Shown piece after piece: positions 24,444 to 32,746 of a DNA stretch of 36,853 bases. The notes under the pieces are model-generated. The model had not been told where the DNA came from and searched no databases. It worked only from the letters and a program-made list of their open reading frames with translations. The DNA comes from a virus. The translations under genes and the position numbers were made by a program. Each line of letters starts with the position of its first letter. Position 1 is the first letter of the stretch. The DNA lies in the IMG/VR virus record IMGVR_UViG_3300020084_000042, positions 1-36,853 of that record; one strand, given 5' to 3'.

Positions 24444-25031
24444 CTATTTGAATTCTAATAGTTTATGTAACTGTACTCCCAACCTAAATCCTGGGTTTTC
24501 TTTAACAATTTTTATAGCATTCTCATAGTTTATTTTACCCCATACGGGCTGGATAAAATTCCAGGCACATAGGTGCCATAAATTTTTCTCAACTACAGAT
24601 TTCCATAACTCTTTCCCATCTCCTGTCAACCATTTTAATTCATCTATATAACACCAGTCATCAGGGTCAATTTCCTCTTTTGGAGAGCAGGTTACCCAAG
24701 GCCCGAAATGGGCGAGTTCTTTTATTTTGTCTATATAACTTCCATTTGTTTCTATATGTATAAAGAAACCTAATTTATGTAACTCAGAAACCAAAGGAAG
24801 TAAGTCTTGAAGGAAAGGCTCTCCACCTGTAATGCAGATATTCCTTATAGGGTATCCTCTAACTCGGGTAAGTATTGTACTTATTTGGAGGTTTATTTTT
24901 TCTGTATAATCTGTATCACAGAATTCACAATTATAGTTGCACCCAGCTAATCTAATAAAGACCATTGGTATTCCAGTCCAATGTCCCTCGCCTTGAATTG
25001 AGTAAAAGATTTCATTTATTTTATATTCCAT
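24444..25031 (-). CDS. queE: 7-carboxy-7-deazaguanine synthase
   Basis: QueE is a radical SAM enzyme that converts carboxy-tetrahydropterin to 7-carboxy-7-deazaguanine. The 195-residue protein begins YKINEIFYSIQGEG and has the CxxxCxxC iron-sulfur motif (CNYNCEFC, Cys31, 35, 38) and the radical-SAM ITGGEP motif at residues 67-72. Length fits short QueE forms. The ATG follows AAGGAGGGACGAAA and overlaps the CxxCxxCC gene by 16 bases. It supplies the substrate of QueC in the preQ0 pathway. Confidence 0.93.
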   Translation of the reverse strand: MEYKINEIFYSIQGEGHWTGIPMVFIRLAGCNYNCEFCDTDYTEKINLQISTILTRVRGYPIRNICITGGEPFLQDLLPLVSELHKLGFFIHIETNGSYIDKIKELAHFGPWVTCSPKEEIDPDDWCYIDELKWLTGDGKELWKSVVEKNLWHLCAWNFIQPVWGKINYENAIKIVKENPGFRLGVQLHKLLEFK

Positions 25032-25645
25032 TTTCGTCCCTCCTTAAAAAGTAGTTCTTTAATTATATCTAGTTTTGTTTTTACTTTAAAATAGTCACAC
25101 CAAGTAGATAACCTGGTAAGTTTTTCCTGAACAGTTAGGATTGAATCTGATGTCCATTTCCCAAAAGAACATTTCTGACTTGGAACATTTGAGAAAAGGT
25201 CAGTAGTTAATAAGACATAAGGAGTAGGCCAGTTAGATACAAGTGGACCCATCTGAATAAACTTTATAGGTGGGAAGTAACAGGAGAAAGGTTTTACTTT
25301 ATGGATACAGCACCTGCCATGAGAGTCTAGATAAATACATGTAGATTCATCCTTTTGAGTATATGACCAGTAGGTAAACTTTTTCTTATTAAATATAATA
25401 GTTTTAAATGAACCTAGAGATTGAAGCCAGTCTGGTAACTGGTCTACCTCCCATGGAAGATAATCTAAGGTATAGCCTTTACAGCAAACACCACAGTCTG
25501 GAGGACAGTAGAAAGTATTAAACAGGTCTGGATGGATAAATATCCTAGAAGGAGAGAAAAGTGCCTCCCGATACTCTATTATTTCTGTAGTTACTGGTAT
25601 AATATATCTTGTTATAATTTTATGAGTCGAGTCTAAATAACTCAT
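25016..25645 (-). CDS. CxxCxxCC (YkgJ/FliB-family) protein, candidate preQ1 N-methyltransferase
   Basis: The 209-residue protein has the metal-binding cysteine pattern of Pfam PF03692: Cys47, Cys51, Cys54-Cys55 (CPPDCGVCC), then Cys103, and RCCIHKVKPFSC (Cys112, Cys113, Cys122). This family includes FliB, which N-methylates flagellin lysines. The gene is coupled to queC (ATGA overlap) and overlaps queE by 16 bases, so it belongs to the 7-deazaguanine operon. The aminomethyl group of preQ1 is a primary amine, like a lysine side chain, so I infer that it may methylate preQ1 or preQ1-DNA, as proposed for the DpdM group. Alternative: an iron-sulfur accessory protein. Confidence 0.6.
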   Translation of the reverse strand: MSYLDSTHKIITRYIIPVTTEIIEYREALFSPSRIFIHPDLFNTFYCPPDCGVCCKGYTLDYLPWEVDQLPDWLQSLGSFKTIIFNKKKFTYWSYTQKDESTCIYLDSHGRCCIHKVKPFSCYFPPIKFIQMGPLVSNWPTPYVLLTTDLFSNVPSQKCSFGKWTSDSILTVQEKLTRLSTWCDYFKVKTKLDIIKELLFKEGRKWNIK

Positions 25646-26346
25646 TTAGTTCCCTCCTCCTTTGCCCTTCTAATCAATGGGTCTGTTAATCCTGCCTGCC
25701 TAAAACCCTCCGCTCTTAGTTTACAAGAATCACACTCTCCACAAGGAGGGTATAGATTATTATAACAGGTATGAGTATATGCCCAAGCTTCCCAAACCCC
25801 AGAAAGTTTTATAGCATGTCTAATCATGTTTGTCTTAGATAAAAAGAGTAGGGGAGCCCATGTAGTTATTGATGGTTTATCTAGACCTAAAGAACTTTGA
25901 ACTACCATGTCAAATTTATCTAGAAAGTCTGCTCTGCAATCAGGGTAGCCTGAATAATCTGTCTGGGATATACCTACAACTAGATGTTCTATACCCTTCT
26001 TTATTGCTAAGGCTGCTGCAAGAGAGAAGAGTATTAGGTTTCTTAGGGGAATAAAGGTTATAGGTAAATTTAAAAATTGTGGATGAAGGCCAGAATGCCA
26101 GTGACTTTCTGATTCTGCTGTTAAACTTCCCCCTGCAATTTCTTTTAAAGCTTTTATACCTAACTGGGTTAAAGGAACTTCTGCCAGTTCAGTCACCCTT
26201 CTTACTGCTTCCTTTTCTAAACTATGGGTCTGTCCATAATCAAAAGTTACAGCTTCTACTTCAAGAAAAACTTGCTTAGCCCAAAAGAGACAGAAGGTAG
26301 AATCCTGTCCCCCAGAAACACAAACCAGAGACTTTTTCCCTTTCAT
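25642..26346 (-). CDS. queC: 7-cyano-7-deazaguanine synthase
   Basis: QueC converts 7-carboxy-7-deazaguanine to preQ0 using ATP and ammonia. The 234-residue protein has the PP-loop SGGQDS (residues 11-16), the FDYGQ motif, and a C-terminal four-Cys zinc site (CYNN, then CGECDSC). I use ATG 26346, five bases after AGGAGG, rather than an upstream GTG. The stop overlaps the next gene as ATGA. It is the third step of the phage pathway after FolE and QueD, with QueE. Confidence 0.95.
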   Translation of the reverse strand: MKGKKSLVCVSGGQDSTFCLFWAKQVFLEVEAVTFDYGQTHSLEKEAVRRVTELAEVPLTQLGIKALKEIAGGSLTAESESHWHSGLHPQFLNLPITFIPLRNLILFSLAAALAIKKGIEHLVVGISQTDYSGYPDCRADFLDKFDMVVQSSLGLDKPSITTWAPLLFLSKTNMIRHAIKLSGVWEAWAYTHTCYNNLYPPCGECDSCKLRAEGFRQAGLTDPLIRRAKEEGTK

Positions 26347-26355
26347 AAACACCTC

Positions 26356-27594
26356 CTATTTTTCAATATGTTCATAGATTATTTCTTCTTTAAGAACACT
26401 TTTAATTTTTATAATTTTTGCTTTTAAAAGAAGACCTAGAATGGCTTCAAAATCTTTGGGATGGTTTAAATATCTCATTATAGAATTTAGTATCACAGAT
26501 TCAGGTAGAATTTTATGAACTCTAAATAAATCTATAACCATTTGAGTCACCCTCATTCTTGGGTCTGTTACAAGACTTTCAATTACTTTTATAGTATCTG
26601 GTTCAACTAGATTTAGAATATTAAGAGCGTCCTGTAGAGTTTGAGCTTCTAAAACTAGTTCATCCTGGGTATATGTTAATTGAAGAAGGATAGCAAGTTT
26701 TAGTAAGTGGTCCTGTTTCCTTTCTAGGTAGGCAATTACAGGCCCAGGGGCTACTTCCCTTTCCCCTAATCCCTCATACCAATTTGTAAAAAGGGCTTCA
26801 CACTCAGGTGTCCAATTTATTTTCCCATGAATTAAGGCTAATTTTTCTAATTCCGATAGAATTTCATCTCTTAACCCTGGAGGTGCAGGTGGGGGACAGG
26901 CAACCCTTTTATTCCAGTTTGGGGGTAGGGCTATTAGTATTATTCTAGACATTAATCCAGTTTTAAATAAATCCTGAGGGAGTAAGGTTTGAATTCCTTC
27001 TGGTGTAGATGCACCTAGAAAGGATAGGCAGATATTATATAAAGCTTGGTCTCCCCTCATTATTGTTTCACTTACCCATTTATCATGGCAATCATATAAT
27101 TCTGTAAGAAGACTAGATAATCCTATATTATACCTTTCCTTACCTAATAGGACACTTAATTCTGTAGATTTCAAAAGGCCTATAGCAGGTTGCTGAAAGA
27201 ATGTTTTAGGAATGTGTTTAGGTAGTTCTAGCCCAGGTTGTGGTATCTGAGATGCTAAGGCTTTTATAAGAGCCTCTGGTGTAATTTTTGAGGCAAGTAT
27301 TTTTGGCTTTAGATGGTCTGGAAGACCAGACAAAAGTTGCCCACCCATCCAGATTGAACTTGATTTATGTCCCAGACCTTGAGGCCCGACTAAGACAACC
27401 CAAGGGTTGGGATATAAAGTTGGGAAGTTTTCTGGGCTCCCTCTTTGAAAGGATACTTTTCTATTTATAATAGAACCTAGAATACAGGCTGCAACAAAAA
27501 AATGGTATCTAGGGCAGACCTCACTATTACAATCCAGGTTATAATATAAACTAAAGTATTTAGATTTCTCACAAAACTTAAACACATCATCCAT
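26356..27594 (-). CDS. DUF3987-like replication protein, helicase or primase-helicase ATPase
   Basis: The 412-residue protein resembles the DUF3987 group of phage replication ATPases. A Walker A-like loop reads VGPQGLGHKSSS (near residue 70), followed by an acidic-aspartate region around LLKSTELSVLLGK and ELYDCHDKWVSE, and FLGASTPEGIQ. The loop carries an extra His compared with GxxxxGKS, which is unusual. The C-terminal 100 residues are helical and may bind DNA or a partner. It overlaps the dpdA-like gene by eight bases. A helicase role is inferred from position after the polymerase. Confidence 0.65.
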   Translation of the reverse strand: MDDVFKFCEKSKYFSLYYNLDCNSEVCPRYHFFVAACILGSIINRKVSFQRGSPENFPTLYPNPWVVLVGPQGLGHKSSSIWMGGQLLSGLPDHLKPKILASKITPEALIKALASQIPQPGLELPKHIPKTFFQQPAIGLLKSTELSVLLGKERYNIGLSSLLTELYDCHDKWVSETIMRGDQALYNICLSFLGASTPEGIQTLLPQDLFKTGLMSRIILIALPPNWNKRVACPPPAPPGLRDEILSELEKLALIHGKINWTPECEALFTNWYEGLGEREVAPGPVIAYLERKQDHLLKLAILLQLTYTQDELVLEAQTLQDALNILNLVEPDTIKVIESLVTDPRMRVTQMVIDLFRVHKILPESVILNSIMRYLNHPKDFEAILGLLLKAKIIKIKSVLKEEIIYEHIEK

Positions 27595-28279
27595 AAGGTT
27601 CTATTCCCCGTACTAGGAATATGTTTCTTATAGTTTGACTTACCTGTTCCTTTGTAAGTTTTATAGTAAAATCTAGTAAGGGGGTTTTTGGGCGCCTTTC
27701 TCTATCTTGCAAGTCAATTCCATATAAAGCCGCTCTAATGGGCATACTAGTGTCTAAACTTTTAGGAGGAAGGATTCTAAGTTCATCTAAGGACCTAAAT
27801 CCAAAATAGTGGAATAGACCAGATTCTTCTTTATTCTTTAAATATACCCGTCTTGGTCTATCAAAAGGTAAGGCAACCTCATCACAATGGTCTAATAATC
27901 TAAACATTTCCTTCCTATGACCTTGCCAACAGCCTACAACTTTATATGAATACCCTGCCTCTTTTATCCTATTCCATAGAGAAAAGATTTGATAAAGGGT
28001 AAAATGAGCATTGTTTCTAGTTTCTGGGGCGACAATATGAGTAGCCCCTATTAGTTTAGCTGCTTCCAATAGTTGATTATCTGGTAAACATTTCCTTAAC
28101 TCATGCCATCCATTATCTAACCACACCTGCCTTCCCTTCTCACTTTGCTTCTTATAAAATTTTACATACTTTGACTTCGGGCCCTGGTCAAGGACAACCT
28201 GACCTAAGGCAAAGTCAAAGTCACACAATTTAGATAATTCCTCTAAATGATGGTACGGAATTTCCATAGCTAGTTTCAT
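27587..28279 (-). CDS. dpdA: DpdA-like DNA 7-deazaguanine transglycosylase
   Basis: DpdA enzymes are tRNA-guanine-transglycosylase relatives that swap guanine in DNA for preQ0 or a derivative. The 230-residue protein has the short barrel pattern: WLDNGWHE (Asp55, Asn56, Gly57), HIVAPETRNNAHF, YKVVGCWQG, HYFGFRSLDEL and a C-terminal KSLDTSMPIR (Asp176). The LDNG and LDTS motifs are the likely catalytic or substrate-binding aspartates. It starts at ATG 28279, overlapping the polymerase TGA, in a cluster with all preQ1 genes. It is shorter than tRNA-guanine transglycosylases, which helps argue against a tRNA role. Subfamily not assigned. Confidence 0.8.
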   Translation of the reverse strand: MKLAMEIPYHHLEELSKLCDFDFALGQVVLDQGPKSKYVKFYKKQSEKGRQVWLDNGWHELRKCLPDNQLLEAAKLIGATHIVAPETRNNAHFTLYQIFSLWNRIKEAGYSYKVVGCWQGHRKEMFRLLDHCDEVALPFDRPRRVYLKNKEESGLFHYFGFRSLDELRILPPKSLDTSMPIRAALYGIDLQDRERRPKTPLLDFTIKLTKEQVSQTIRNIFLVRGIEPYG

Positions 28280-30480
28280 TCTTTGGCCTCCTCCCATGTT
28301 AATGCTTCCCTAACTTTTACAGGGAAGACCTTAGAAAGTTCTGGGCAGGCATCATTAAAACAAGATTCAAATTCTTTAAGCCTGTCTGTTTCAAGGTCTT
28401 CTTCTACTACAATCTCATCATGAATATATAGAATAATATTAAATCCGGCTTTAAATATCTTGACTAATGCCCTATTTGCTACTTCAGATGCACAGCTTTG
28501 AACAGGGTAATTTAAAGCTTCTGTCATAGATTTACAATGTTTGATTCTCCCAAAAGGAGTTTCTAAAATACCTTTGGATTTATACTTACCTAGAAGTTCG
28601 TCTCTGAAAGAGGCAATTTTAGGAAACTCTTTAATCACCATAGATTGCAAGGTTTCTATAATTAGTGGTGGTATTTTAAACTGCTCTGAAGCTGTTCTTA
28701 CAGATAACCCATACATAGTCCCGAAGACCATAGTTTTAGCAACAACCCTAGATGTAGGAATAATTTCATTCATTTTTAATCTAATTTCCTCGTGTACATC
28801 TCTACCTAAAGTAATCGCTTTGGATAAAGAAGTTTCACCTGAGAGTATAGAAATTATTAAAAGTTCTAGTTGGGTGAAATCTCCTATTAAAAGTTTCTTC
28901 TTAGGTCCGGCTATAATCTGACCCCTAAGATGCCTTGGGATATTCTGCATATTAGGTTTATGGCAGGCCCATCTACCTGTATCTGTGCCTGTTGGTTTCC
29001 ATTCTGGGTGAATCCTTCTGTCATCTTTTATAAGTTTATAAAAACCTATTATATAGGTAGATAGGATTTTTGCAAGTTCTCTATATTCTAGAATTCTGGT
29101 TAGAATCTGCCTGTCATCTGTATAAATCCTCTTCATTAAATCTTGTAAAACAGTTTCATCTACACTTAAAGATTTTCCTTTGTATGCAGAAGGTGGGGGT
29201 GGAAGTTTTAAAGTCTCGAATAGTAAGGTAGAAACCTGTTTGGGAGAGTCTATGTCAATATAGAAATCCTTATAAAACTGTGCTTTTAAAGATTCTGCCT
29301 TGGGATTTATGTCTAGAAAATTAGTAGCAAGTTTCTCTTGATTTATATACACCCCCCTATGTTGCATATCTAAGGCTATATCATTGTAGATAAGGGTTTG
29401 TTTCTGAAGGTCTTTCAGTTTCCCAGTTATAAAAGGTTTTTGGTTTATAGAAACCTGTAAGGTAGTATCTACATCAAGGCAGTTGTAATGACCTAGGGCC
29501 TCTTTTGGAAGTTCCCAAGGTTTTTTATATTTATGTTTATATGGGGGGATGTTTGTATAGATACTTCTTAGGAAATCTAGGTCCCTAGGTGAGTCAGACT
29601 TAATTAGGTTCATAGAGTCAAATGTGTCCCAGACCATATTCTTAACTTTTATGCCCTGATGAAGAAGGAGGAAGTATCTATCAAATTGATTGTTTTGGAA
29701 TACTTTAGGGGTATTGCCTTCAAGAAAGGTTTTAATTATCTTCCACCTTTGTGGAGAGAAATTGGATAAATGAAGAGAAAGTGCGACTCCGGGTTCTCCA
29801 CAGAAGCCTATACCTATAATAGAGTCTCTATAAGGATCTGGGCCTCCGACAAAGTTTGCAGTTGTTTCTATATCTACTGCTACAGGGGAATCTTTCCATG
29901 TATCAAATAGATAATGAGTAAGGAGTTCATCAGATGGTTCGAGAATATACTCTTGTGAATATTCCTTAGGAGGGTTTTGAAGTTTACTTATATCATGAAC
30001 TACTGTAGAAATTTCTCCCCAGTTACCCCTAAGTATATAAGAAGGGTGGTAGGTTATTAGAGTGGGAAGATTAAAATATAAATCTTTAACTATCATTCCC
30101 CTCCAAGTTAAATCCTTTCCAGTTAAGGCCTGAGTAGCAGTCGAACCTAGAGCAACTAGATTAGTTGGATTTATTTCTTTAATTTCTTCTAAGAGATAAG
30201 GAAGGCAATTTTTAATCTCTTGGTCTGTTGGAGGTCTATTATTAGGGGGGCGGCATTTAATTATATTTGAGATTCTGGAAGATTTCCTTGTAGTAAATGG
30301 AACATAGAACAAAATTTTATTTAGAACTTTTCCTGCACTACCTATAAAAGGTCTACCACCTTCATCTTCTTCTCTTCCAGGAGCTTCACCTATAAACATA
30401 TAGAAGGGGTTTTTAAACCCCTCACCAGGTATTGGATTAAATTTTGGATAGCAGTTATGGGAACAATGTTTTAGTTGCAT
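28276..30480 (-). CDS. Family 4-type uracil-DNA glycosylase fused to family A DNA polymerase with proofreading
   Basis: The 734-residue protein has three parts. Residues 1-165 are a UDG of the iron-sulfur type: Cys6, 10, 76, 92, GEAPGREED (31-39) and HPSYILR (145-151). Residues 195-345 are a 3'-5' exonuclease with Asp203-x-Glu205, Asn264-x-x-Asp267 and Tyr332-x3-Asp336. Residues 400-734 are polymerase A with TGRWACHKPNMQNIP, motif A DFTQLE (Asp534), motif B KTMVFGTMYG (Lys582, Phe586, Tyr590) and motif C HDE (687-689). This is the replicative enzyme, with a uracil-reading module attached. The start overlaps queF by 26 bases, and the stop overlaps dpdA. Confidence 0.93.
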   Translation of the reverse strand: MQLKHCSHNCYPKFNPIPGEGFKNPFYMFIGEAPGREEDEGGRPFIGSAGKVLNKILFYVPFTTRKSSRISNIIKCRPPNNRPPTDQEIKNCLPYLLEEIKEINPTNLVALGSTATQALTGKDLTWRGMIVKDLYFNLPTLITYHPSYILRGNWGEISTVVHDISKLQNPPKEYSQEYILEPSDELLTHYLFDTWKDSPVAVDIETTANFVGGPDPYRDSIIGIGFCGEPGVALSLHLSNFSPQRWKIIKTFLEGNTPKVFQNNQFDRYFLLLHQGIKVKNMVWDTFDSMNLIKSDSPRDLDFLRSIYTNIPPYKHKYKKPWELPKEALGHYNCLDVDTTLQVSINQKPFITGKLKDLQKQTLIYNDIALDMQHRGVYINQEKLATNFLDINPKAESLKAQFYKDFYIDIDSPKQVSTLLFETLKLPPPPSAYKGKSLSVDETVLQDLMKRIYTDDRQILTRILEYRELAKILSTYIIGFYKLIKDDRRIHPEWKPTGTDTGRWACHKPNMQNIPRHLRGQIIAGPKKKLLIGDFTQLELLIISILSGETSLSKAITLGRDVHEEIRLKMNEIIPTSRVVAKTMVFGTMYGLSVRTASEQFKIPPLIIETLQSMVIKEFPKIASFRDELLGKYKSKGILETPFGRIKHCKSMTEALNYPVQSCASEVANRALVKIFKAGFNIILYIHDEIVVEEDLETDRLKEFESCFNDACPELSKVFPVKVREALTWEEAKE

Positions 30481-30859
30481 GGAGGTTTACTCCTCCCCTC
30501 GCTTTAAAGTAGGAATCTACTCTTATCCAGTTTGGGCGTAGGCAATTAAATAAGTCATAGGCAATTTTTGTAGTAATTGCCTCTGCAAAACCTTTGTATG
30601 ACCTATAACTTTGAAGATAGAGTTTAAGGGATTTAGATTCAAGGCATAGCCTGTTAGGCATGTATTCTATTGTAATAGAAGCCCAATCAGGTTGCCCAGT
30701 TACTGGGCAAAGAGAGGTAAATTCATCTGTCTTAAATTTTACTATAGTTATGTCTGGAGAAGGAAATGTTTCCAGAATAGAAGGCGTAACCTTATCTGGT
30801 ACAAGGACATGCCTTTTAAGAAGAGTTAAGGTTTTATTCTTTTTTGCCTGTCTAGGCAT
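30455..30859 (-). CDS. queF: preQ0 reductase
   Basis: QueF reduces the nitrile of preQ0 to the aminomethyl group of preQ1 with NADPH. The 134-residue protein is a single-domain form. It has the nucleophile in FTSLCPVTGQPDWA (Cys51, with Asp58 seven residues later as in Bacillus QueF) and the NADPH motif ESKSLKLY (74-81). The segment after SYR reads FAE where cellular QueF has FHE, a change at a substrate-pocket His. The end YFKARGG is the usual terminal signature. I use the ATG at 30859, five bases after GGAGG. The NADPH motif argues against the amidinotransferase QueF-L. Confidence 0.92.
   Translation of the reverse strand: MPRQAKKNKTLTLLKRHVLVPDKVTPSILETFPSPDITIVKFKTDEFTSLCPVTGQPDWASITIEYMPNRLCLESKSLKLYLQSYRSYKGFAEAITTKIAYDLFNCLRPNWIRVDSYFKARGGVNLHATKTLFP
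30478..30496 (-). promoter_or_regulatory. Hairpin enclosing the polymerase ribosome binding site
   Basis: On the minus strand GGAGG (30496-30492) can pair with CCTCC (30485-30481) over the loop AGTAAA, with the polymerase ATG directly after the stem. The GGAGG is the best ribosome binding site for this gene. The whole hairpin lies inside the end of queF, so ribosomes finishing queF would open it. This predicts that polymerase translation depends on queF translation. Confidence 0.5.
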
Positions 30860-31166
30860 CATTACCTCCTTTCTTTTCCTCATATAAACATCTTAAGAGG
30901 ATTAAATAGTTAATACTATCTGTTATATGTTCTACATAGGTAGAAACTTCTTTTCCTTGTTTTATACAGGTTAGAAGAGTTATTAAATGCTTTGCCCACA
31001 TACCTAGGAGGACTTGCTCAGGGGTCTGGTCTAAGAGTATTGCACCATCTTTAAACTGAGACATTGTATCTTCATTTCTATCATAAATCCCCCTTCGGTT
31101 AAGAAGAGGTCTATAGCATTCTTCAATTTGCCTCTTTATAATCTTCTTAAAAACTCTTAATGTCAT
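30852..31166 (-). CDS. Small DUF1599/Nmad1-like protein in the modification operon
   Basis: I use ATG 31166, which overlaps the folE stop (ATGA) and follows GGAGGATTTT; an upstream ATG would extend into folE. The 104-residue helical protein has QTPEQVLLGMWAKHLITLL, then a C-terminal helix EHITDSINYLILLR, similar to the last helix of DUF1599, also called nucleotide modification associated domain 1. That family is linked by context to phage base modification, with no known reaction. The match is partial. Position between folE and queF fits such a role. Confidence 0.45.
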   Translation of the reverse strand: MTLRVFKKIIKRQIEECYRPLLNRRGIYDRNEDTMSQFKDGAILLDQTPEQVLLGMWAKHLITLLTCIKQGKEVSTYVEHITDSINYLILLRCLYEEKKGGNDA

Positions 31167-31744
31167 AAAATCCTCCATTCTTTTGGGCAATAGCTTAAAA
31201 ACTCCTGCCTTGTAGCAGGGTCAAGGAAATCCCCTTTTAGGGATGCAGTTAATACAAAACCAGAAGTCTTAACTCCTCTAGCTTGCATACATTGGTGTTC
31301 CCCAAGAACGTGAACGCCTACTCCTTTGGGTTGAAGAGAGGTGTAAAGCCCTTCTGCTAGTAAATCGGTATAGTTTTCTTGAAGAACTAGGCCTTTTGCA
31401 TAAAAATCGGCTATTCTGGCTAGTTTAGATAACCCAAGGATATATCCTGCAGGGATATAGCCTACAGAAACAATTAATTTAACCCTTTCAAAATGGTGTG
31501 GACATCTTGTAAAAGTTTTATGACCTATTAAAGTTATCATTTGGTCATGGGGTTCCTCGAAGACTTGGAAAAGTTTCCTTGTAGGTTTAGGCCTATATAA
31601 TTCTTCAAGCCATAAACGGGCAACTCTTTTAGGGGTATCTTTTATATTTTCATCTTGTAAGTTATACCCTAGGGTTTCAAGGATGTTCTTTATATCTCTT
31701 TTTAAAGTTAAAAGTTTTTTCTCTTTCCACTTAGGCGATGGCAT
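31163..31744 (-). CDS. folE: GTP cyclohydrolase I
   Basis: FolE converts GTP to dihydroneopterin triphosphate, the first step to preQ0. The 193-residue protein has DTPKRVARLW (36-45), the zinc ligands Cys81 and His84 in RCPHHFE and Cys152 in GEHQCMQARGV, and LSKLARI (105-111), all signatures of type IA cyclohydrolase. The zinc motif reads CPHH instead of the common CEHH. Start ATG follows GAGGGAGG within queD, and the two genes overlap by 14 bases. A phage copy would raise pterin flux into 7-deazaguanine synthesis. Confidence 0.95.
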   Translation of the reverse strand: MPSPKWKEKKLLTLKRDIKNILETLGYNLQDENIKDTPKRVARLWLEELYRPKPTRKLFQVFEEPHDQMITLIGHKTFTRCPHHFERVKLIVSVGYIPAGYILGLSKLARIADFYAKGLVLQENYTDLLAEGLYTSLQPKGVGVHVLGEHQCMQARGVKTSGFVLTASLKGDFLDPATRQEFLSYCPKEWRIL

Positions 31745-32081
31745 AGCCTCCCTCTCCTTCTTGAACTTTTATGGTGATTATAAATTCTTTTAAAGACTTA
31801 TGCCGAGAAATTTGTTTCTTGAGGAATCTTGCAAGATTTTCACAACTTGGATAATAGAGGGGTGTCTGAGTATTTAGTAGGGTATGGTCTAGGTCCCCTA
31901 GGATAGGTTCTACTATTTCAGATAAAGATTTAAAGTCGAACATTATATCTTGAAGGGTATCTTCTCCTTTTTCAGTTAGTATAACTTCTACCCTCCAAGT
32001 GTGCCCATGGGTTTGTCCACAGGTTGCATGTCCCGGGAGATAGTGGGCAGCATCAAAAGTAAATATCTTGCCCAAAGTCAT
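31731..32081 (-). CDS. queD: 6-carboxy-tetrahydropterin synthase
   Basis: QueD makes 6-carboxy-5,6,7,8-tetrahydropterin from dihydroneopterin triphosphate. The 116-residue protein has FDAAHYLPGH with zinc ligand His13, catalytic Cys21 and HGH (25-27) in CGQTHGHTWRV, LDHTLLN (64-70) and PSCENLA (78-84). I chose ATG 32081 because GAGGAGG lies ten bases upstream; upstream codons would only add a Lys-Arg tail. The gene overlaps both folE and a small upstream ORF, so the pathway genes are tightly coupled. Confidence 0.95.
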   Translation of the reverse strand: MTLGKIFTFDAAHYLPGHATCGQTHGHTWRVEVILTEKGEDTLQDIMFDFKSLSEIVEPILGDLDHTLLNTQTPLYYPSCENLARFLKKQISRHKSLKEFIITIKVQEGEGGYAIA

Positions 32082-32178
32082 CTTTTTCGTCCTCCTCTTG
32101 GAATTCATTCCAGTACCAAGGTGGGTCTTTATGTAGTTGGCCTGGGTAGTTATAAAAATTCATTTCACTCTTCAACAT
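32053..32178 (-). CDS. Small acidic hypothetical protein overlapping queD
   Basis: The 41-residue ORF has a clear GGAGG six bases before its ATG and ends 29 bases inside queD. It is aromatic and acidic (DPPWYWNEFQEEDEKDDFG). Its end covers the queD ribosome binding site, so it may serve as a leader that couples translation to queD. No family recognised. Confidence 0.5.
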   Translation of the reverse strand: MLKSEMNFYNYPGQLHKDPPWYWNEFQEEDEKDDFGQDIYF

Positions 32179-32194
32179 TTTATACCTCCTTTTA

Positions 32195-32746
32195 TCATTT
32201 TGACTCCTGTATTCCGAAGTCTTTCTTCTTAATTTTTACCATTCGCCCATCGGGATGATGAAAGACAATACCTTCAATGTGTTGATTTTTCAACCATTCC
32301 CGAAGGTTGTTAAAATCACGTGGGCAATCTGGAAACTGTTCAGCGTTGGTGTGCTTTAAAAGGATATGTTTTCCCAACTGTTCCGGGTTCCCCTGAATTT
32401 TTGGCCCAAGAAGTTCATAAGTCCCGTTTACTTTTTCTATTAGTGCGTCAAAGGCTTCCCAATGATACTTATCGCCTGGTTCTTCACGATAACAGGGACG
32501 CCAACCTACCCAATGCCTGGTTACTGCATCCTGGTCCTGTGCTGGGATAAAATCAGCGGGAGGCTGCTTCTTAGCCTCGTACCGTTTAAACAATTTACCA
32601 TCTTGAATCATGCAACATGTCCCGTTATATTTACGGGTTGCCACTCCTTCCCCATTTATCACCCATTCTGCACCAGGCACAATTTCGTTACGTACAAGGT
32701 AGTCAGTCTCGTAGTTTCTTTGAAACAAACTTATTATCTTTTTCAT
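32195..32746 (-). CDS. RNA ligase, DUF5565-like nucleotidyltransferase
   Basis: The 183-residue protein is a compact nucleotidyltransferase. The adenylation motif is ATRKYNGT, with Lys39 as the likely AMP-bound residue (K-x-N-G instead of K-x-D-G). RYEAKK (55-60) follows as motif Ia, with YELLGP (110-115), IEGIVFHH (157-164) as motif IV and VKIKKKDFG (170-178) as motif V. It belongs to the short phage RNA ligase 1-like group. It could repair tRNAs cut by host defence. Codon and base use here are richer in G and C than in the surrounding genes, which hints at later acquisition. Confidence 0.8.
   Translation of the reverse strand: MKKIISLFQRNYETDYLVRNEIVPGAEWVINGEGVATRKYNGTCCMIQDGKLFKRYEAKKQPPADFIPAQDQDAVTRHWVGWRPCYREEPGDKYHWEAFDALIEKVNGTYELLGPKIQGNPEQLGKHILLKHTNAEQFPDCPRDFNNLREWLKNQHIEGIVFHHPDGRMVKIKKKDFGIQESK

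Follow-up and report, generated by a model that had tools for sequence, protein, structure and literature searches.

A viral operon predicted to make preQ1 and insert it into phage DNA joins a short DpdA3-related transglycosylase with QueF and a YkgJ-like protein

Phages that make preQ1 from GTP and carry it in their DNA have been described before. Streptococcus phage Dp-1 encodes FolE, QueD, QueE, QueC, and QueF together with a transglycosylase in one operon, and 2'-deoxy-preQ1 (dPreQ1) was measured in its DNA at about 1.7% of G, with no archaeosine (dG+) (PMC6884629). Vibrio phage 6E351A, which has QueF in its cluster, contains dPreQ1 at 15% (PMC12028318), and HVTV-1 DNA, with about 30% dPreQ1, resisted all enzymes tested. 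The Campylobacter phages were reported to contain dADG, not preQ1 (cited in PMC6884629). In a 2019 study the order of steps was left undecided: phage QueF might reduce preQ0 as a free base, ahead of insertion, or act on dPreQ0 within the DNA. Here we describe an operon of this kind in IMG/VR virus record IMGVR_UViG_3300020084_000042; the entire record, 36,853 bases long and classed as linear, was analyzed and is referred to below as the window. A sequence-only reading of the window had singled out the complete route from GTP to preQ1 with a DpdA-like protein as uncommon. Since the full route ending in dPreQ1 is already known from Dp-1 and 6E351A, the window system is a variant and not a new kind.

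It is likely, in our view, that the operon makes preQ1, that its DpdA puts the base into phage DNA, that a YkgJ-like protein probably decorates it, and that restriction is escaped. Inside the infected cell, GTP would be converted by FolE, QueD, QueE, and QueC to preQ0 and by QueF to preQ1. The small DpdA would exchange guanine in phage DNA for preQ1 (or for preQ0, which would then be reduced) via a covalent intermediate of the tRNA-guanine transglycosylase (TGT) type on D176, with D55 as the acid/base. The YkgJ-like protein would probably act on the aminomethyl group of preQ1, most likely by N-methylation, and the modified DNA would evade host restriction enzymes. For the Que and TGT families of enzymes, these reactions are established chemistry. 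The operon consists of ten minus-strand genes running from 32108 to 24444 and abutting or overlapping by a few bases (Table 1), in the order QueD, FolE, an unknown 112-aa protein, QueF, a fusion of uracil-DNA glycosylase (UDG), exonuclease, and PolA, the DpdA-like protein, a DUF3987 protein, QueC, the YkgJ-like protein, and QueE. The genes of the virion (portal, major head, and tail fibre, among others) are on the plus strand. In the sequence-only account of the operon, the five enzymes and DpdA were correctly recognized, and the YkgJ-like gene, the UDG–exonuclease–PolA gene, the DUF3987 gene, and the type of DpdA were overlooked.

All five pathway enzymes match solved structures of enzymes of the same name, those matched by QueF being of the NADPH-dependent type. 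Curated NCBIfam cut-offs are exceeded by QueC and QueF and not by QueD, FolE, and QueE, which are short or divergent and have clear Pfam or PDB matches. The catalytic and metal-binding residues noticed earlier are indeed present, namely the C..HH and H.C motifs in FolE, the CxxxHGH motif (as CGQTHGH) in QueD, CxxxCxxC in QueE, and SGGQDS with the Cys cluster in QueC. The start of QueD is probably at 32081, giving 31731-32081. In QueF, conservation extends to C59, D66, the NADPH/reductase motif ESKSLK (E82-SKSLK), and E101; the exception is the His preceding E101, replaced by Ala at a position that is also variable among other phage QueFs. The earlier prediction of preQ1 or a derivative as the DNA base is sound as a prediction, since the reductase/NADPH motif is retained in QueF and its score is that of a preQ1 synthase (121 bits against TIGR03139, with a cut-off of 86.9). 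In the QueF tree, the short and the long (two-domain) types are separated at 100/99 support. The long group takes in the remaining DpdA3 phages and a part of those with YkgJ; the short group is made up of phages with classic DpdA (DpdA1/2), such as Dp-1, together with the window, which is the sole DpdA3-like row there.

The presence of a DpdA-like protein in the operon, claimed in the sequence-only reading, could not be proved by family search, and is backed by homologues, profile comparison, and fold. The protein has no Pfam or NCBIfam match, its best PHROG is 19058, marked 'unknown function' (E=0.002), and tblastn against 50,697 phage records gave no matches at 1e-5. At E≤10, all matches but one were Campylobacter phage proteins and Flavobacterium phage immuto, mostly with E near 0.01–0.1; query coverage by the former reaches 97%, and the latter is an annotated DNA-guanine transglycosylase. 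When compared pairwise in a small set, the Campylobacter proteins align with the window DpdA end to end and the immuto protein over 147 residues, with 24–26% identity and E about 2e-8 to 5e-8. The alignments thus characterize it as a full-length distant homologue of both. A profile built from these homologues recruited many relatives, and D55, N56, E60, L61, P85, H157, G160, E166, D176, T177, and P180 are invariant across 48 sequences; D176, the predicted nucleophile, lies in LDTSMP, and D55, the predicted acid/base, in LDNG. The DpdA3-type proteins of the Campylobacter Firehammervirus phages (CP220, CPt10, CJLB), although only about 24% identical, share the LDN..EL, QG, H.G, and SLDTS.P motifs. 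In hhalign, the comparison with DpdA1/2 gave a probability of 87% (E=4e-6) and aligned both Asp residues (to invariant D58/D217). A longer reading frame of the gene begins at 28297.

The AlphaFold (AF2) model of this protein (mean predicted local distance difference test score, pLDDT, 93.8) alternates between strands, eight in all, and helices, and places D55 and D176 where strands end. All 50 best PDB matches listed are TGTs (E about 1e-6), with modest TM-scores (0.46–0.52) and a root-mean-square deviation around 6 Å, so that comparison with TGT, proposed earlier as a safeguard against an unrelated fold, came out in favor of a transglycosylase. In a viral structure library, uncharacterized phage proteins rank at the top, followed by several named queuine/queuosine tRNA-ribosyltransferase. 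A phmmer search against PDB gave no match, and hhalign against E. coli TGT alone was weak (probability 9.5%), but the QG, LMG/LLG, and FDCVMP/LDTSxP blocks follow in the same order in both, with D176 set against FDCVMP. The Zn site of TGT (CxCxxC...H) is absent from the sequence, as it is from phage DpdAs such as those of 9g and Dp-1, and hence is not diagnostic for DpdA. The model thus describes a (beta/alpha)8 barrel resembling TGT; a chance TIM barrel is ruled out by the fold ranking and the co-linearity of motifs.

In a tree of 88 DpdAs, for which the program warns of long branches, the window protein belongs to a 13-tip clade (100/100) sister to the immuto/Campylobacter group, and is thus placed outside the DpdA3 clade. 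The DpdA3 subfamily is said, in work by Cui et al. of 2023, to bring about (near-)complete replacement of G. The immuto locus, which has the closest annotated DpdA (26% identity, E=4e-8), supports our reading, as it also holds FolE, QueD, QueE, and QueF, with PolA nearby; unlike in the window, its QueF is of the long two-domain type, a formyltransferase takes the place of YkgJ, and no QueC was seen in the stretch examined. Dp-1 differs in another way, having a classic-group DpdA without significant BLAST similarity to that of the window, as well as QueT and no YkgJ.

Relatives were found in viral contigs by degenerate patterns derived from the alignments; searches with single DpdA, QueF, and PolA proteins confirmed nothing. 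A record from human faeces (L005) matched QueF well and was discarded, as its gene content proved bacterial. About half of the 139 loci with such DpdAs, counted over the fetched DNA and many of them contig fragments, also carry FolE, QueD, QueE, or QueF. Within the 13-tip clade, the loci L016/L017, L018-L022, L028, and L126-L138 resemble the window in having a UDG–PolA gene near DpdA (at the equivalent place, adjoining or near it, in L016, L018, L022, and L028) and usually a syntenic DUF3987 gene adjoining it. Unlike in the window, neither QueF nor YkgJ was detected in any of them. The larger of these records were searched whole, yielding no QueF above the cut-off and no YkgJ; some of these searches had no built-in positive control, and a profile of the same kind detects QueF in 75 other loci. 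Five clade records gave weak matches to the QueF model, which in L018, L020, and L022 lie in the frames of FolE, a member of the same T-fold superfamily. QueC is present in most of the larger records and absent in a few. In the nearest relatives, L016 and L017, the 112-aa gene is followed directly by PolA, with no QueF between; the L016 DpdA is about 58% identical to that of the window, and the operon order is alike with the QueF slot empty. Both contigs end before the YkgJ/QueE region, from which no absence can be deduced there.

Thus, within the clade only the window has a detected QueF, of the short type, and a YkgJ-like gene, and the only other locus clearly combining a DpdA3-type gene with YkgJ (L123) has a long QueF. 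Judging from these comparisons, what is new is the mosaic, in which a DpdA of a separate, previously unrecognized branch occurs with partners that usually accompany other branches. Because neither gene was found in its clade relatives, its short QueF groups with those of DpdA1/2 phages, and a DpdA3-type gene with YkgJ is otherwise clearly seen only in L123, QueF and YkgJ look as if they had been acquired by the window lineage, together or separately, with the direction and source being inferred.

The YkgJ-like protein is probably a relative of DpdM. Cui et al. in 2023 reportedly gave this name to a dPreQ1 methyltransferase with a new fold, and the YkgJ family is probably this dPreQ1 N-methyltransferase; a literature search on YkgJ/PF03692 and DpdM gave nothing usable. 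The family travels with QueF and DpdA: tblastn homologues are located beside one or both in Pseudanabaena phage Pan1 (E=1e-17), Mycobacterium phage Knocker (4e-16), and Cellulophaga phage phiSM (9e-7), and others are present in Vibrio phages. Among YkgJ-family loci of at least 13 kb, QueF was found in 20 of 24, FolE in 21 of 24, and a DpdA match in 16 of 24. Like the window, Pan1, Knocker, and phiSM have a short QueF near the YkgJ homologue and the full pathway; unlike it, they have a classic-group DpdA, and their YkgJ retains the RVDGxRGA segment. The presence of this QueF-linked gene makes a methylated preQ1 possible in the window.

Table 1. Genes of the predicted preQ1 operon in the window
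Product	Coordinates	Strand	Evidence
QueE, radical-SAM 7-carboxy-7-deazaguanine synthase	24444..25031	-	6nhl E=4e-24; 4njg E=3e-17
YkgJ/CxxCxxCC-family protein, divergent member	25016..25645	-	PF03692 E=2e-5
QueC, preQ0 synthase	25642..26352	-	TIGR00364 above cut-off; 3bl5 E=2e-41
DUF3987 protein, replicative primase/helicase-like	26356..27594	-	PF13148 E=3e-9; phrog_14296 DNA primase E=1e-21
DpdA, predicted DNA-guanine transglycosylase, short DpdA3-sister clade	27587..28279	-	230 aa; fold and homology
DNA polymerase I-type fusion	28276..30480	-	UDG E=7e-27, exo E=7e-8, PolA E=4e-57; TIGR00758 above cut-off
QueF, preQ0 nitrile reductase of the short (type II, unimodular) form, producing preQ1	30455..30883	-	TIGR03139; 4f8b E=4e-23, 5udg E~1e-23
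112-aa protein, function unknown	30852..31190	-	phrog_6802 E=3e-17
FolE, GTP cyclohydrolase I	31163..31744	-	PF01227 E=3e-40; human GTP cyclohydrolase I 1fb1 E=2e-26 over 175 aa
QueD, 6-carboxytetrahydropterin synthase	31731..32108	-	PF01242 E=7e-23; 2oba E=8e-12; 4ntm E=1.5e-9

Several observations weigh against preQ1 insertion, its decoration, and the escape from restriction as proposed here. No QueF was detected in the related phages of the clade, whose DpdAs presumably use preQ0; acceptance of free preQ1 by the window DpdA is a prediction only. Residue E86 of this DpdA stands where 98% of the wider family have Asp. The window YkgJ has no RGWxxxRVDGxRGA segment, near-invariant elsewhere in the family, and D95 and E125 are also lost (deleted or substituted), so its activity may differ or methylation may be lost. 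Finally, GATC occurs 16 times in the window, at an observed-to-expected ratio of 0.18, an about five-fold depletion genome-wide, and G-containing 4-bp palindromes are at 0.72 of expectation (CGCG is absent and GCGC is at 0.30), with no depletion of AT-only ones. This suggests that restriction or other selection on G-containing sites acted despite any modification. Full protection is therefore not to be assumed, but GATC is at 0.00 in the heavily modified HVTV-1, and it is not lacking in 9g; such palindrome statistics are an indirect test of restriction pressure, with an ambiguous outcome here.

The alternatives concern the product, the substrate, and the order of steps. As a refinement compatible with our reading, the end product could be 2'-deoxy-7-(methylamino)methyl-7-deazaguanine (mdPreQ1), with the YkgJ-like protein as a working DpdM. 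The association with QueF and DpdA described above, the retention of all invariant Cys of the family, and a predicted model (pLDDT 87) without a fold match in PDB (best E=0.9), as would fit the new fold reported for DpdM, speak for it; given the lost segment and acidic residues, and an equation of YkgJ with the DpdM of Cui et al. 2023 that is itself no more than probable, we put this product at somewhat less than an even chance. The same end product would arise in another order if DpdA inserted preQ0 and QueF then acted on the DNA-bound base. Clade members with QueC and without detected QueF imply preQ0 as the ancestral substrate, and QueF looks like a late addition; yet the substrate of bacterial QueF is the free base, and in the tree the window QueF falls among ordinary short ones, which makes this order unlikely, if far from negligible. 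A broader conjecture, which we hold to be rather improbable, is that DNA-guanine transglycosylases of minimal size (about 230 aa), adjoining a UDG–PolA fusion and usually a DUF3987 gene, form an unrecognized clade that ancestrally inserts preQ0; in this phage the enzyme would have been re-tooled to preQ1 through the gain of QueF from elsewhere and of a divergent YkgJ, the latter making a derivative other than the known methyl and formyl forms.

The pathway might instead provide preQ1 for host or phage tRNA, as the same enzymes provide queuosine, and such a supply was proposed for pathway phages without DpdA (PMC6884629). The mid-operon position, between PolA and the primase-like gene, of a transglycosylase that belongs with the DNA-modifying enzymes of phages, and the lack of QueA and QueG from the operon make this very unlikely and point to DNA as the substrate. 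Least probable of all is that QueF is an amidinotransferase (QueF-L) and the base archaeosine. In phages, sequence alone does not readily separate QueF from QueF-L (PMC6884629), but the ESKSLK motif and a preQ1-synthase score well above the cut-off disfavor this assignment, and Dp-1, whose QueF is comparable, contains dPreQ1 and no dG+.

If preQ1 insertion by DpdA is the activity of the operon, the window and L016 would form a natural pair for testing which base the transglycosylase accepts, and the transglycosylase, at 230 aa, would offer a compact means of writing 7-deazaguanines into DNA. As the DpdA clade is invisible to Pfam and NCBIfam and its near PHROG carries no function, many modified phage genomes have probably been missed by annotation.

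Among the neighboring genes, the fusion protein has a family-4 UDG domain (GEAPG and HPS motifs) N-terminal to a 3'-5' exonuclease and a PolA-type replicative polymerase. The 112-aa protein between FolE and QueF has no reliable match besides its PHROG; in L018, the equivalent slot before PolA is occupied by a MazG pyrophosphohydrolase (E=1e-8). Just upstream of the operon, a short protein (32195-32746, minus strand) matches RNA ligase 1 (RLIG1, E=5e-10) and carries a KYNG adenylation-like motif. A scan of genome contigs found no relatives and hence no clue to a host or prophage.

Some other loci depart from the common gene set. Two members of the window's DpdA clade, L137 (62 kb) and L138 (39 kb), have FolE, QueE, and DpdA, with QueD seen only in L137, and no QueC was found across the whole records; they may insert 7-carboxy-7-deazaguanine or borrow QueC from the host. 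Five loci (L096, L099, L105, L112, and L114) have QueF, QueC, and YkgJ and no DpdA1/2/3 match, apart from a weak partial DpdA3 match within a 449-aa frame of L114. These probably use another type of transglycosylase, perhaps that of archaeal viruses.

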